From Lachnospiraceae bacterium (GTDB lineage: Bacteria > Bacillota > Clostridia > Lachnospirales > Lachnospiraceae): DNA of 11,229 nucleotides. The DNA lies in contig JAGCCY010000250.1 in the NCBI GenBank assembly GCA_017651385.1, positions 1-11,229 of the forward strand, written 5' to 3'. The stretch's first letter is position 1. Every line of letters starts with the position of its first letter. Below, in pieces: positions 5,988-11,068 of the stretch. Under the pieces are notes generated by a model, which was given only the letters and a program-made list of their open reading frames with translations, was not told the DNA's origin and ran no database searches. The position numbers were made by a program, and so were the translations under genes.

Positions 5988-6335
5988 ATGAACGACATTA
6001 TTAAGTCAATCGAAGAAGCTCAGCTTAAGGAAAACATTACCGAGTTTGGTGTTGGTGATACCATTAAGGTTTATGCCAAGATCAAGGAAGGTGAAAAGGA
6101 AAGAATTCAGGTATTTGAAGGCACCTGCATCAAGAGACAGGGCGGCAGCACAAGAGCTACATTTACCGTAAGAAAGACTTCCAACGGTTGCGGCGTAGAG
6201 AAGACTTGGCCGTTACATTCCCCCAATGTAGACAAGATCGAAGTTGTCCGCAAGGGTAAGGTACGTCGTGCTAAGCTTTACTACTTAAGAGATCGTGTAG
6301 GTAAGGCTGCAAAGGTTAAAGAACTTATAAGATAA
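5988..6335 (+). CDS. rplS: 50S ribosomal protein L19
   Basis: This 115-residue L19 is a large-subunit protein at the 30S-50S interface. The sequence contains [50 protein letters not shown] and [19 protein letters not shown], which identify the family along its full length. AAGGAGG (5974-5980) is an ideal Shine-Dalgarno sequence before ATG 5988. It has its own promoter, a structured leader and a strong terminator just downstream, so it forms a compact unit that can be controlled separately from the trmD operon. Confidence 0.98.
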
Positions 6336-6348
6336 TTGAAAAACAGAG

Positions 6349-6380
6349 CGGAGCAGAAATTATTCTGCTCCGTTTTTTTT
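6349..6380 (+). terminator. Rho-independent terminator after rplS
   Basis: CGGAGCAGAA (6349-6358) pairs perfectly with TTCTGCTCCG (6363-6372) around an ATTA loop, and eight Ts (6373-6380) follow directly. This is a strong textbook intrinsic terminator, 13 bases after the rplS stop. It closes the translation gene cluster. Confidence 0.95.
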
Positions 6381-6407: not shown

Positions 6408-6998
6408 ATGAGCAGAAGATATAACGGACTTGATTTTAACAGAAAGCCCAAGAAGAAAATCGATCAAAGCCACCTTCATGAACTTATCAGCTGGATATTC
6501 TGGCTTTCGGTTTCGGGCAGTATAGTATTTGTACTCATAGATGTGTTCGGTCTTCGTACAAATGTCATCGGAAATGCCATGGAACCTTCATTGTATTCCG
6601 GTCAGCAGATACTTATAAACAGGATGATCTACAACATTTCTTCTCCCGAACGCGGTGATGTTGTGGCATTTCTTCCTAACGGCAACGAAGACTCACATTT
6701 TTATATAAGGCGTGTTATCGGGGTGCCCGGTGATACCGTTAAGATCGTAGACGGATACATATATATAGATGATGTTTTGCTGGACGAAGAGGGTGCATAC
6801 GATAAAATAGCCAATCCGGGTATTCTTGAAAATCCGATAACCCTTTCTGAGGATCAGTTCATAGTTTTCGGCGATAACAGGAATTTCTCGGAAGATTCAA
6901 GATCGTGTAACATCGGTATCGTCGAGAGTTCTTATCTGGTCGCAAAAGTCTGGTTTAAGATATCGAATAATTTGGAATTTATGGGCTTTGTGAGGTAA
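6408..6998 (+). CDS. lepB: Signal peptidase I paralogue with both catalytic residues substituted
   Basis: This is a 196-residue S26-family protein with a basic cytoplasmic N terminus (1-26), one membrane segment (about 27-47) and an extracytoplasmic domain. Fold motifs are kept: MEPSL after the nucleophile site, ERGDVVAF, YIRRVIGVPGDTV and the box E motif GDNRNFSEDSR (155-165). The nucleophile position, normally Ser before Met, is Ala57 (GCC, 6576-6578). The general-base Lys of YIKR is Arg101 (AGG, 6708-6710). It should therefore not cleave signal peptides; lepB is its homology name only. The frame is intact, so it is not an obvious pseudogene. No Shine-Dalgarno sequence precedes ATG 6408, and the next in-frame ATG is Met58, too late to be a start. 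It lies between rplS and rbgA, where Firmicutes often carry lepB. A substrate-binding or regulatory role beside the active copy is inferred. Confidence 0.9.
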   Translation: MSRRYNGLDFNRKPKKKIDQSHLHELISWIFWLSVSGSIVFVLIDVFGLRTNVIGNAMEPSLYSGQQILINRMIYNISSPERGDVVAFLPNGNEDSHFYIRRVIGVPGDTVKIVDGYIYIDDVLLDEEGAYDKIANPGILENPITLSEDQFIVFGDNRNFSEDSRSCNIGIVESSYLVAKVWFKISNNLEFMGFVR

Positions 6999-7000
6999 AA

Positions 7001-7879
7001 ATGGCAACAGTTCAATGGTATCCGGGTCATATGAGCAAGGCAAGGCGCGAAATGGAAGCCGATATGAAGCTCGTGGAGCTTGTAATCGAAATAGTCGACG
7101 CACGCTGCCCTGTATCGTCCAGAAATCCCGATATAGATAAAATTGCAAAAGGAAAATCAAGGTTAATACTTCTTAACAAGGCTGATCTTGCCGATAAATA
7201 TATAAGCGAGAAGTGGAAAAAATATTTTGAAGATAAGGGTATAAGAGTCGTCTTTATCAATTCAAAACAAAAAGAAGGCATAAGGAATGTCTTACCCAAT
7301 GTCAAAGAAGTGTGTGCCGACAAGATAAAGAGAAATCTTGAAAGGGGCATCAAAAATCAACCCATAAGAGCGATGGTCGTAGGCATACCCAATGTCGGGA
7401 AATCCACTTTTATAAACGCTTTTGCCGGAAGGAACATCACAAAAACGGGAGATAAGCCCGGAGTCACCAAGGGCAAGCAATGGATTAAGATAAATCCCGA
7501 GCTTGAACTTCTTGATACGCCCGGTATACTCTGGCCAAAATTTGAAGATCAGGAAATCGGCAAAAGACTTGCAATGATCGGTTCCATAAACGATGAAATA
7601 CTTGTGGTTGAAGAACTTGCCGGAAATCTTCTGGATTATCTCTACGATAATTATTTCGATCTTATCAAAGAAAGATATAAGATCGACGAAGATACATTAA
7701 AACCTCTTGAAGACGATGCACAGTTTGTCACTAAGGAATCTGTATTGCTCGATAAGGTTTCTTTGACTTTAGGCTGTCTTAAAAAGGGCGGAGTTCCGGA
7801 TTATTTTAAAGCCGCGTCAAGATTTCTTGACGAATTCAGAGCCGGAAGTATAGGAAAAATATCACTTGAAAGGCCGTAA
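7001..7879 (+). CDS. rbgA: Ribosome biogenesis GTPase RbgA (YlqF)
   Basis: This is a 292-residue circularly permuted GTPase needed for late 50S assembly in B. subtilis, acting on the 45S intermediate. Motif order is permuted: NKAD (G4, 59-62), then GIPNVGKS (G1, 128-135), then PGVTKG around 153-158 (G2 region), then DTPG (G3, 172-175). The N terminus has WYPGHMSKARRE, including His10, which should correspond to the His implicated in RbgA GTP hydrolysis. A helical C-terminal ANTAR-like region follows. Length is typical. It starts two bases after the upstream stop, with GAGGT at the end of that gene as Shine-Dalgarno sequence. It is the gene between the two signal peptidase paralogues. Confidence 0.97.
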   Translation: MATVQWYPGHMSKARREMEADMKLVELVIEIVDARCPVSSRNPDIDKIAKGKSRLILLNKADLADKYISEKWKKYFEDKGIRVVFINSKQKEGIRNVLPNVKEVCADKIKRNLERGIKNQPIRAMVVGIPNVGKSTFINAFAGRNITKTGDKPGVTKGKQWIKINPELELLDTPGILWPKFEDQEIGKRLAMIGSINDEILVVEELAGNLLDYLYDNYFDLIKERYKIDEDTLKPLEDDAQFVTKESVLLDKVSLTLGCLKKGGVPDYFKAASRFLDEFRAGSIGKISLERP

Positions 7880-7883
7880 AGAT

Positions 7884-8417
7884 ATGGATTCAAGATTAAA
7901 AGACATTTTAAGCACAAGTATATATTTTCTTGCAGTTTTGGCAGTCGCGTTTCTGCTGATCAAATATGTGGGACAAAGAACGGAAGTTAACGGCAGTTCC
8001 ATGAATGAAACCTTGTTTGACGGCGACAATCTTATCTTAAATAAGATATCCTACAGATTTCACGATCCCGAAAGATTCGATATAGTTGTTTTTCCTTTCA
8101 GGGACGGATCAAACAAGACATACATAAAGCGCGTTATCGGTCTTCCCGGTGAGACGGTCCAGATACTTGAAGACGGGACTATCCTGATAAATGATGAAGA
8201 ACTTGTCGAATCATACGGCAATGCTGTCATAAAAGATCCAGGAAACGCCGCAAAGCCGATAAAACTTAACGATAATCAGTATTTTGTTATGGGAGACAAC
8301 CGTAATGATTCAAGCGATTCAAGGTTTAACGAAGTCGGTATAGTCAACAGGAAAGAAATACTCGGTAAAGTCTGGGTGAGATTTTATCCGTTTACAAAGA
8401 TCGGGGTTATTAAATAA
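7884..8417 (+). CDS. lepB: Signal peptidase I, active-site dyad intact
   Basis: This is a 177-residue membrane serine protease of family S26 that removes signal peptides from Sec and Tat substrates at the outer membrane face. A single N-terminal membrane segment lies at about 13-29. NGSSMNETLFDG carries the catalytic Ser39, YIKRVIGLPGE carries the catalytic Lys82, and GDNRNDSSDSR is at 137-147. ATG 7884 lies four bases after the rbgA stop, with AAAGG at 7869-7873 as a weak Shine-Dalgarno sequence. An in-frame TTG at 7866 inside rbgA would add six residues and is less likely. It is clearly homologous to the protein at 6408-6998 but keeps the dyad that one lacks, so it is the functional enzyme of the pair. 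Confidence 0.95.
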   Translation: MDSRLKDILSTSIYFLAVLAVAFLLIKYVGQRTEVNGSSMNETLFDGDNLILNKISYRFHDPERFDIVVFPFRDGSNKTYIKRVIGLPGETVQILEDGTILINDEELVESYGNAVIKDPGNAAKPIKLNDNQYFVMGDNRNDSSDSRFNEVGIVNRKEILGKVWVRFYPFTKIGVIK

Positions 8418-8421
8418 GCTT

Positions 8422-9078
8422 ATGACAGCCAAAGAGTTAAAAGAACAAAAACGGCTTGAAAAATATCAAAAAGAAGTCGAAAGGACCGAAAAACTCAAAG
8501 AGTTTGAAAAGCAGTACGAATATTTGGGATATGTCTGCGGAATAGACGAAGTCGGAAGAGGTCCTCTGGCGGGGCCGGTTGTAGCCGGTGCGGTGATACT
8601 TCCAAAAGACAGCAAGATACTTTATCTTAACGATTCAAAAAAATTATCGGAGAAAAAACGCGAGGAATTATACACGGTCATTTATGAAAATGCGGTCTCC
8701 GTGGGGATTGGATTTGCCGGGCCGGACAGAATAGATGAGATAAATATCTTAAATGCCACATATGAAGCAATGCGTATGGCAATAAGTAAACTGTCGGTCA
8801 CACCCGATGTTCTTCTAAACGATGCGGTCACCATCCCCGAAGTTATGATAAAGCAGGTCCCTATAATCAAAGGAGATGCAAAGAGCGTCAGTATTGCGGC
8901 AGCAAGCATTGTCGCAAAGGTTACAAGGGACAGGCTTATGGTCGAATACGATAAACTGTATCCCGAATACGGATTTTCAAAAAACAAAGGATACGGAACG
9001 GCAGAGCATATAGAAGCTCTAAAAAAATACGGCAAATGCGAGATACACAGAAACAGCTTTATCAAAAATTTTGTATAG
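8422..9078 (+). CDS. rnhB: Ribonuclease HII
   Basis: This 218-residue enzyme cuts the RNA strand of RNA-DNA hybrids and removes misinserted ribonucleotides. GIDEVGRGPLAGPV supplies Asp42 and Glu43. LLNDAV supplies Asp134 and KGDAKS supplies Asp152, completing a DEDD metal site. IAAASIVAKVTRDRLM and YPEYGFSKNKGYGT are also family signatures. The first 35 residues are a charged, probably coiled-coil extension ahead of the catalytic fold. Start ATG 8422 is four bases after the lepB stop. No good Shine-Dalgarno sequence is visible, so translation is probably coupled. The rbgA-rnhB association is common in Firmicutes. Confidence 0.97.
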   Translation: MTAKELKEQKRLEKYQKEVERTEKLKEFEKQYEYLGYVCGIDEVGRGPLAGPVVAGAVILPKDSKILYLNDSKKLSEKKREELYTVIYENAVSVGIGFAGPDRIDEINILNATYEAMRMAISKLSVTPDVLLNDAVTIPEVMIKQVPIIKGDAKSVSIAAASIVAKVTRDRLMVEYDKLYPEYGFSKNKGYGTAEHIEALKKYGKCEIHRNSFIKNFV

Positions 9079-9092
9079 ATGAAAGGTAAGAT

Positions 9093-10772
9093 ATGCCGCT
9101 TATTAACACAGATTTTTTGGCTTCACATGTAAATACCGAAGTTACTTCCAATCAATCCGTCGAAGTAACACAGGCCGTATCGGAAGCCAATAAAGAGGCT
9201 GTACTTAATATGATAGATAACCTTACTGCAGGTGATACGATCCTCGGTAAGGTCTTGTCGCAGTCCGGAAAAAACCTTTCGATCCTCACAAATAACGGTG
9301 TTACGATAAATGCAAAGAACTCCGCTCAGATAGTATTTGAGAAGGGCTCAAATATCCTGTTTGAAGTTCAAAAGCGTTCGGGTAACGATCTTTCGATCAG
9401 ACCGTTATATCAGAACACAAGCATTCAAAAGACCGCCGAAGTTGCTTTAAGACAGGCGGGTCTTCCAATCAACGAAAGAAGTCTTGAAATGACCGGCCGA
9501 AATATGGAATACGGAAATCCCATAGACCGTCAGTCTTTGATCGAGTCATACAAAGATGTGGCTTTATATCCAAACGAAAGTGTTAAGAGCATCATCGATC
9601 TTCAAAAGATGGATATCCCTGTCACAAACGATTCCCTTAATCAGTATAAGGCATATATGAGTATGGAAAATTCGGTCGTGGCGGCTTTTGATACCATAAC
9701 CGGCGATCTTTTAACCGATATGGCGGATAAATTGAAGTCTATGGATCCCGCTTCTTTAAACGGGGCAATTCCCGGCGATGTTCTTAATGATCTTTCAAAG
9801 ATCGCGGAAAGCCTTTCGGGCGGTGGGAATCCGGCAAATGTGTTCTTTGGCGAAGAAGAGATCGCTTCGCTTATAAATGATGCGCATGAAGCGGGTATCA
9901 CTCTTCCTTCATTTGAAGATAATGCGGAGATCTCACGCATGAATCCCGCAGAAGCTTTTAAGCTTCTTTTAAATGATATAAGCGATCCCAAAGCATATAT
10001 AAGCGAAGAAATAAAGCCGGCCGATATCGGCGAAAGACCCAACGATATTTTTAATTTAAATCAGCAAAACGACAGATCTTTAAATCCACAGGTTACAAAC
10101 CAAACGCAGGCAGCCGATCTTAATCCGTTTGCATCGGTAGCGGAGCTTATGTCAAAAGATTCGGTAAAAGATGCGTTTAAAAAGGTCCTTGGTTCACAAT
10201 GGTCGGTTGAAAGTGAAAAACTGTCGGATAAAACAGAGATCAGGAATCTTTACGACAGGTTATACAACCAGACAAAAAACATACTTGATATATTGAATTC
10301 CAATCCCGAAAAGAATCCCGCAAAGGACAGCATTAACAATCTAAGGCAGAATCTTGAGTTTATGAATGACCTTAACAATTATGTCCCTTATGTGCAGATC
10401 CCTTTCCATACCGAAAACGGATATAATAACTCCGAATTATACGTATACACCAATAAAAAGAATCTTGCCGCAAAGGACGGAGAAGTAAGCGCGTTCATAC
10501 ATCTTGACATGGATCATTTAGGGCCTACGGATGTCTATGTAAAAATGAGCGATCTTCATGTATCCACTAATTTTACCGTAAAGGACGAGGATACACTTAT
10601 CTTTCTTGAACATCATCTTGATTTTCTTGAGAAAAGACTCGAAAAAAAGGGGTATTCATTTGAGGCAAACGTAAGTGCAGATAAAGATAAGGTGTCGCCC
10701 ATAGAACAGGTGCTCAGCGCAAACGAACAGCATCTTTATCTTCAGGACACTTCATTTGACGCGAGGGTTTGA
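9093..10772 (+). CDS. FliK-like protein (YlqG-like), flagellar hook-length control C-terminal domain
   Basis: This is a 559-residue, soluble-looking protein with no signal peptide or membrane segment. Residues about 45-110 form a beta-rich module (AGDTILGKVL, FEVQKRSGNDLSIRPL) like one at the N terminus of clostridial FliK-like proteins. A long, polar, Asn/Ser-rich middle follows. Residues about 434-530 resemble the FliK C-terminal Flg_hook domain, notably LDMDHLGPTDVYVKM and the helix FLEHHLDFLEKRLEKKGY. A FlhB C-terminal homologue follows two bases downstream. B. subtilis has the comparable ylqG-ylqH pair after rnhB. FliK proteins are secreted rulers that contact FlhB to switch export specificity; whether this copy does so is unknown, as no flagellar genes are near. 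AAAGGT (9082-9087) precedes ATG 9093. Confidence 0.75.
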   Translation: MPLINTDFLASHVNTEVTSNQSVEVTQAVSEANKEAVLNMIDNLTAGDTILGKVLSQSGKNLSILTNNGVTINAKNSAQIVFEKGSNILFEVQKRSGNDLSIRPLYQNTSIQKTAEVALRQAGLPINERSLEMTGRNMEYGNPIDRQSLIESYKDVALYPNESVKSIIDLQKMDIPVTNDSLNQYKAYMSMENSVVAAFDTITGDLLTDMADKLKSMDPASLNGAIPGDVLNDLSKIAESLSGGGNPANVFFGEEEIASLINDAHEAGITLPSFEDNAEISRMNPAEAFKLLLNDISDPKAYISEEIKPADIGERPNDIFNLNQQNDRSLNPQVTNQTQAADLNPFASVAELMSKDSVKDAFKKVLGSQWSVESEKLSDKTEIRNLYDRLYNQTKNILDILNSNPEKNPAKDSINNLRQNLEFMNDLNNYVPYVQIPFHTENGYNNSELYVYTNKKNLAAKDGEVSAFIHLDMDHLGPTDVYVKMSDLHVSTNFTVKDEDTLIFLEHHLDFLEKRLEKKGYSFEANVSADKDKVSPIEQVLSANEQHLYLQDTSFDARV

Positions 10773-10774
10773 GC

Positions 10775-11068
10775 ATGGCTGATGAGATAAAGAAAAACAA
10801 TTCAAAACAGGCTATTGCCCTTCAGTACGATCCCGATGATATCGCCCCCAGAGTCCTTGCGACCGGACAGGGACTTGTCGCGGAAAAGATCCTCGAAACG
10901 GCCAAGGATAACGATGTGCCCATTCACAAGGACGAACAGCTTGCGAAGACTTTGTCGAAGCTTGAAGTCGGAGATGCGATCCCGCCCGAGCTTTATGAAG
11001 TTGTGGCCGAGATCCTTGTATTTGTGGACGCAATGGATAAGATCAAAGGAAAAATGGACAGAAATTAA
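10775..11068 (+). CDS. Free-standing FlhB C-terminal-like protein (YlqH-like, EscU/YscU family)
   Basis: This 97-residue protein is equivalent only to the cytoplasmic C-terminal fragment of FlhB, the flagellar/type III export specificity switch. AIALQYDPDD matches the AVALKYDP stretch after the FlhB cleavage site. VPIHKDEQLAKTL, EVGDAIPPELYEVVAEIL and a helical end follow the FlhB domain to its C terminus. The membrane half is absent. The autocleavage motif NPTHY is replaced by NNSKQ, so self-cleavage is not expected. ATG 10775 is chosen because GAGGG (10763-10767) stands seven bases upstream; TTG 10769 is an in-frame alternative. It follows the FliK-like gene by two bases, suggesting that the two products interact. 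Confidence 0.85.
   Translation: MADEIKKNNSKQAIALQYDPDDIAPRVLATGQGLVAEKILETAKDNDVPIHKDEQLAKTLSKLEVGDAIPPELYEVVAEILVFVDAMDKIKGKMDRN

Follow-up and report, generated by a model that had tools for sequence, protein, structure and literature searches.

The window, that is, the whole 11,229-nt stretch of DNA analysed here, belongs to a MAG of the Lachnospiraceae (345 contigs totalling 1.9 Mb; completeness 72%) and carries two S26 genes on either side of rbgA, all on the forward strand. The rplS gene (ribosomal protein L19; positions 5988 to 6335; Pfam Ribosomal_L19, 169.4 bits) is the 5' neighbour of the first S26 gene (copy 1; 6408 to 6998). Copy 1 is followed by a GTPase gene (7001 to 7879), which we take to be rbgA (ylqF), by the second S26 gene (copy 2; 7884 to 8417) and by rnhB (ribonuclease HII; 8422 to 9078; Pfam RNase_HII, 148 bits). 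The gene order given in the initial annotation was correct, with Pfam matches at both flanks. A terminator-like hairpin followed by a T run (6349 to 6380) sits between rplS and copy 1. Its 10-pair stem spans 6349 to 6372; the program lists the hairpin on the reverse strand, and the T run was read on the forward-strand sequence. From copy 1 through rnhB, consecutive genes are separated by gaps of 2 to 4 bases. Since the terminator-like hairpin lies 5' of copy 1 and these short gaps continue through rnhB, the four genes are probably co-transcribed, with copy 1 as the first gene of the operon. Downstream of rnhB (9093 to 11068), the window encodes first a protein that contains a FliK-type Flg_hook domain, then a small protein matching the FlhB C-terminus (Bac_export_2). 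The two resemble the ylqG/ylqH pair that follows rnhB in other Firmicutes.

Copy 1 is an open frame of 196 amino acids. It scored 100.4 bits against Pfam PF10502 (curated cut-off 22.9) and 106.6 bits against NCBIfam TIGR02227 (curated cut-off 47) over the whole domain, which places it in the S26 (type I signal peptidase) family. Copy 2 likewise scored above both curated cut-offs, and the two copies are the only PF10502 matches in the incomplete assembly. In an alignment of 165 residues with 39% identity, Ala57 of copy 1 stands opposite Ser39 of copy 2, and Arg101 opposite Lys82. The codons bear out the residues first reported: GCC (6576 to 6578) for Ala57 at the nucleophile site in box B, AGG (6708 to 6710) for Arg101 at the general-base site in box D, and, in copy 2, TCC (7998 to 8000) for Ser39 and AAG (8127 to 8129) for Lys82. 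The frame of copy 1 is intact, as is its box E, GDNRNFSEDSR (residues 155-165; 6870 to 6902). A functional signal peptidase I requires a Ser nucleophile and a Lys general base, and copy 1 has neither. It is a dyad-less S26 protein retained beside a Ser/Lys one, as expected of an inactive paralogue of the SpsA kind. Hereafter, dyad states are written as the nucleophile-site residue followed by the general-base-site residue (S/K for Ser/Lys, A/R for Ala/Arg).

The same A/R pair was found in a sister genome (G004, also listed as L003), the protein of which is 96% identical to copy 1, and the named record Tb.RUG.242 (L221) has the same copy 1 as this sister. Two database clusters, P0003 and P0008, which are 96-97% identical to copy 1, are also A/R. 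Since the sister genome and both clusters share the two residues, it is unlikely that an assembly error lies behind Ala57 and Arg101.

An AlphaFold2 model of copy 1 had a pLDDT of 78.9, with values below 50 at residues 159-166, within box E. A helix at residues 20-47 of the model (6465 to 6548) is predicted to lie in the membrane, judging from its composition. In the Foldseek search with this model, the top match was SpsB of Staphylococcus aureus (E 3.2e-7, probability 1.00, TMq only 0.50), followed by E. coli SPase I and then SipA, with TM-scores of about 0.5. The best PDB match by sequence profile was also SpsB. The model thus has the SPase I fold. Copy 1 resembles SpsB and E. coli LepB (PF10502, TIGR02227) in its fold, single anchor and boxes C to E, but lacks both of the catalytic residues that these enzymes possess.

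The boxes were compared between 115 A/R proteins of the Agathobacter ruminis type and 104 S/K proteins related to that of the window, the score being the frequency of the most common residue in each set, averaged over the box. Conservation in the A/R set was at least that in the S/K set for box C (0.89 vs 0.84), box D (0.90 vs 0.85) and box E (0.96 vs 0.96). Box B, in contrast, was looser in the A/R set (0.75 vs 0.85), mainly at residues 59-60, right after the nucleophile. Glu at residue 59 had a frequency of 0.57 in this Agathobacter set versus 0.99 in the S/K set; Pro at residue 60 was lost, with Asp as the commonest residue at 0.24. The looser box B stands out all the more because diversity is lower in the A/R set than in the S/K set (mean identity 0.70 vs 0.66). 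The A/R proteins thus retain the fold and probably much of the cleft, and vary more freely near the site of the lost nucleophile. Given the looser box B, the A/R cleft may be unable to bind ordinary signal peptides. Copy 1 of the window itself has Phe154 where its S/K relatives have Leu at a frequency of 0.96, and Cys167 where they have Gly at 0.98. A cytosolic GLxF-type motif was present in 97 of the 184 S/K and 23 of the 28 A/R copy-1 proteins, versus 7 of the 140 copy-2 proteins. This pattern hints at a cytosolic-side partner specific to copy 1, and kinship alone could explain it.

Between copy 1 of the window and that of its A/R sister (L221), dN/dS was 0.047 (bootstrap 95% 0.015-0.091), based on 8 nonsynonymous and 39 synonymous differences in the one pair that represents the window lineage. 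In the same pair of genomes, the values were 0.058 for copy 2, 0.062 for rbgA and 0.093 for trmD; rplS, with no nonsynonymous change, and rnhB, with only 31 codons aligned at the end of the sister contig, were not used. Among A/R pairs above 72% identity, the 25 with an estimate ranged from 0.047 to 0.192 with a median of 0.09, and S/K pairs above the same identity ranged from 0.021 to 0.208; these overlapping pairs are not independent of one another. Purifying selection clearly acts on the dead copies. The A/R pairs tend to have higher dN/dS than most S/K pairs, and the dead copies may thus be slightly less constrained than the live ones. As for the relaxed selection that was named at the outset as evidence against retention, the window pair shows purifying selection close to that on live genes, which favours retention, and the higher tendency of the A/R pairs points the other way.

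Among copy 1 and the best 120 of its 567 database relatives, 104 proteins were S/K, 12 A/K, 3 A/R, 1 S/T and 1 S/R. The window protein and the two clusters with 96-97% identity make up the three A/R proteins. Twenty of the listed relatives lie at 68-77% identity; 19 of them were S/K, which indicates that the double change is recent in the window lineage. The remaining one (P0022) keeps Ser and has Thr at the base site. Close Ser/Lys relatives had been held by the initial annotation to speak against its claim. They do exist, and they point to a recent loss; as a sign of decay they fail, since purifying selection continues and many species elsewhere share the A/R state. In the genus of the window, 17 other genomes were searched and copy 1 was present in 14 of them: 11 are S/K, 2 are A/K (G002 and G014) and 1, the sister, is A/R. 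The Ser-to-Ala change alone is therefore also present within this genus. A Thr-type ("GETM") copy 2 that had appeared in several members of the genus was a regular-expression artefact; profile alignment found no Thr-type copy 2. A search of 397 family genomes with a DNA pattern for GNAME gave matches in 40 genomes. When 30 of these loci, the window's own match not among them, were read by translation, only one (L060) had GNAME at the S26 nucleophile site; another (L035) was an S26 protein with the motif elsewhere, and the rest were other proteins or frames.

The A/R state was found in five genera: that of the window, that of A. ruminis, and the genera g68, g224 and g28. In the window genus, the window species and its sister are A/R and the remainder mostly S/K. 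For the genus of A. ruminis (G308), 60 genomes were searched and copy 1 was read in 58, of which 29 were A/R, 3 S/R and 26 S/K. The A/R copies cluster nearest to A. ruminis, with 23 among the 30 best matches and 6 among the next 28, and the A. ruminis record NZ_PDYG01000087 itself has an A/R copy 1. Among the A. ruminis copy and the best 120 of its 7963 scored database relatives, 115 were A/R and 6 S/R. All four species of g68 are A/R, every one of them with an S/K copy 2, as are both species of g224; the two species of g28 differ, one being A/R and the other S/K. The A/R state can thus be young in places, as in the mostly S/K genus of the window and in the mixed g28.

We analysed the number of origins with a copy-1 tree in which the two dyad columns were masked and, as a check on tree artefacts as the source of the recurrence, with trees of a second gene product, RbgA. 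The minimum number of changes over all dyad states, and between kept and altered dyads, was 14 and 13 in the copy-1 tree (202 proteins), 16 and 14 in an RbgA tree of 222 rows, and 16 and 13 in an RbgA tree of 81 chosen rows, bearing in mind that single-gene trees can inflate such counts. In the 81-row tree, a single clade for all 28 A/R rows was rejected by the AU test (p-AU 4.5e-5), which shows that A/R has more than one origin. The origins in the window lineage and in g28 are the clearest separate events, since S/K sister species exist in both. Copy 1 is therefore not the single odd gene for which it was first taken.

To place these losses, we examined the surroundings of rbgA in the family. 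The gene was located in 217 of 220 family genomes, and its flanking DNA was read in 129 (L061-L189), including the window. The upstream copy was present in 122 of the 129: 109 S/K, 4 A/R, 4 A/K, 4 S/R and 1 G/M. The downstream copy was present in 77: 75 S/K, 1 G/E and 1 Q/R. With one S26 gene on each side of rbgA in 74 of the 129 genomes, the arrangement split by rbgA, which the initial annotation had made part of a possibly undescribed combination, is common. In these 74 genomes, both copies were intact in 63, the upstream copy alone was altered in 9, the downstream copy alone in 1, and both in 1. Overall, 13 of 122 upstream copies versus 2 of 77 downstream copies were altered (Fisher p 0.051), and the 9-to-1 split gave a sign test p of 0.021. 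As the window had been chosen for its dyad state, the counts were repeated for the 128 other genomes. The upstream copy was then altered in 12 of 121 (3 A/R, 4 A/K, 4 S/R and 1 G/M) versus 2 of 76 downstream (Fisher p 0.084); among the 73 genomes with both copies, 8 were altered upstream only, 1 downstream only and 1 in both, and 63 were intact (sign test p 0.039). These counts are suggestive of a modest bias of dyad loss to the upstream copy, one that is not significant by the Fisher test without the window. In the same 128 genomes, Ala and Arg co-occurred beyond expectation (3 A/R, 4 A/K and 4 S/R against 109 S/K; Fisher p 0.004, uncorrected for kinship). The reverse case was seen in one genome (L173; G147), where Gly/Glu is found in the copy immediately 3' of rbgA and Ser/Lys in copy 1 and in a third S26 protein further downstream.

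We checked 18 genomes in which copy 1 or copy 2 is altered, and 17 of them had another S26 protein with Ser/Lys. The exception is G242 (L179), an assembly of 89% completeness, where the two S26 proteins flanking rbgA are G/M and Q/R and a third S26 protein was not found. Either a third S26 gene is missing from this assembly, or export in this organism manages without an SPase I of the Ser/Lys type. Spot checks of 11 further genomes of the A. ruminis genus (L335-L338, L343-L350) showed a Ser/Lys S26 protein away from rbgA in each. Since at least two S26 matches were present in 148 of 150 sampled family genomes, such a back-up is a permissive rather than a specific condition for the loss. One 5.7 Mb family genome (G166) had 22 PF10502 matches, against 1 to 7 in the other 149 genomes of that search. 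In L340 (G044:C48), an extra S26-like protein away from rbgA has Ser and Gly as its dyad-site residues.

To our knowledge, dyad-less signal peptidases have been known only as single cases, namely SpsA and SipA. The SpsA and SpsB genes of S. aureus are adjacent, whereas the copies of the window flank rbgA. SpsA is described as an inactive S26 paralogue (PMC12445088). Copy 1 is unlikely to have inherited its dead state from staphylococcal SpsA, since the relatives nearest to it carry Ser/Lys. SipA of Streptococcus pyogenes is reported to have lost the dyad, with Asp48 and Gly85 at its sites, and to have kept the peptide-binding cleft; it is described as devoid of peptidase activity and as essential, in a non-enzymatic role, for pilus polymerisation (PMC4049620). 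Copy 1 shares with SipA the S26 fold and the loss of the dyad, and SipA (4n31) appears at ranks 13 and 20 of the Foldseek search with its model. The residues at the dyad sites, however, are Ala and Arg, and copy 1 lies in the rplS-rbgA-rnhB region; a Pfam scan of ten other window proteins detected no pilin or sortase families. The S36A mutant of SpsB (PDB 4wvg) was crystallised as a folded apoenzyme (PMC4704075). It likewise has Ala in place of the Ser nucleophile, but it is engineered and keeps its Lys, whereas the natural form has also exchanged Lys for Arg. The peptide complexes in that report used the wild-type form of SpsB, so that peptide binding by S36A was not demonstrated there (PMC4704075). 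Arg at the catalytic-base position (Arg152) is described in the phage 186 CI repressor of the LexA/signal-peptidase superfamily (PMC12984324); that protein is a phage repressor, whereas copy 1 is a membrane-bound S26 protein. Inactive S26 paralogues are thus of a known kind, and their recurrent loss of the dyad at one locus of a family appears to be new. Among the titles and abstract openings listed in searches of the open-access literature, we found no Lachnospiraceae case, Ala/Arg pair, recurrence at one locus or Agathobacter case.

The retention of copy 1 for a non-proteolytic function is well supported. The initial annotation had proposed such a retention, and the proposal stands in that a dyad-less copy lies beside an active-looking paralogue and is under selection against amino-acid change; its picture of a lone oddity does not. 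Binding of signal peptides, partnership with LepB and surface assembly, which it suggested as functions, are candidate roles. The exact job is probably a role at the export site. We lean towards the explanation that selection has kept copy 1 as a pseudo-signal-peptidase, which acts on preproteins or together with the live peptidase. Under this explanation, copy 1 would have been partly a non-cutting protein already before the loss of the dyad, namely an export-site adaptor, docking signal peptides in its cleft, pairing with the active peptidase or the Sec machinery, or both. Cutting by copy 1 would have become dispensable once copy 2 or another S26 protein covered cleavage. Because the SpsB catalytic mutant was crystallised with the same Ser-to-Ala exchange, the form with a natural Ala could bind a signal peptide and leave it uncut; the folded SpsB mutant and the precedent of SipA together favour an export factor that binds preproteins or the peptidase. 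Ala is one base from a TCN Ser codon and Arg one base from Lys, so that both would be mild swaps, which the fold should survive. The convergence on Ala/Arg can accordingly reflect selection to keep the fold, and alone it is no proof of a special role of this pair.

Copy 1 might instead be a negative regulator, which competes for preproteins or forms an unproductive heterodimer with copy 2 and thereby slows some cleavage. The active/inactive pair around rbgA, with gaps of 2 and 4 bases behind the terminator-like hairpin and hence probably co-transcribed, would suit such a role, and an A/R copy occurs together with an S/K copy 2 in G044, in the window species and in all four species of g68. In the Agathobacter-type A/R loci with about 3 kb of downstream sequence, however, copy 2 is absent beside rbgA in 7 of 7, and the S/K copy of Agathobacter lies elsewhere in the genome, so that tight co-expression is not general. 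We consider negative regulation doubtful.

It is also conceivable that copy 1 is a redundant duplicate, freed by another S26 protein to lose catalysis and drifting toward a pseudogene. The recent loss in the window lineage and in g28, the looser box B, the somewhat higher dN/dS of the A/R pairs and the nearly constant presence of a back-up S26 protein would agree with drift. Against it, dN/dS lies far below 1 in all 25 A/R pairs with an estimate, boxes C to E are unchanged, and the A/R copies read have intact frames: 29 genomes in the A. ruminis genus and four of four species in g68. Drift is thus improbable.

Substitutions of the Ser and of the Lys in LepB and SipS abolish activity. Cutting by copy 1 through another nucleophile or base (Arg as the base, a nearby Ser, or water) would agree with the intact box E and with the existence of S/R copies (4 of 122 in the family sample and 3 of the 58 copies read for the A. 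ruminis genus), which indicate that an Arg base is tolerated beside Ser, but it is very unlikely, since Ala57 offers no nucleophile, none of the tabulated box B to E positions has turned into an invariant Ser, Thr or Cys next to it in the A/R set, and the dyad-less SipA is reported to be without peptidase activity (PMC4049620).

Returning to the selection-kept, non-cutting export protein, we tentatively extend it to the family: the S26 protein upstream of rbgA may be a dual-function export factor with a non-proteolytic main job in many Lachnospiraceae, either docking signal peptides or organising the active peptidase. Its catalysis would then have been discarded repeatedly and convergently, often in favour of Ala/Arg, leaving in the Agathobacter group a natural signal-peptide trap under the annotation "signal peptidase I". 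The same swap at one genomic position across the family, with selection ongoing, provides replicated natural experiments on the non-cutting roles of signal peptidases, some of them in isolates such as A. ruminis. Some gut-bacterial proteins annotated as "signal peptidase I" are probably not peptidases, and such misannotation bears on signal-peptidase inhibitors, lists of essential genes and models of the secretome.
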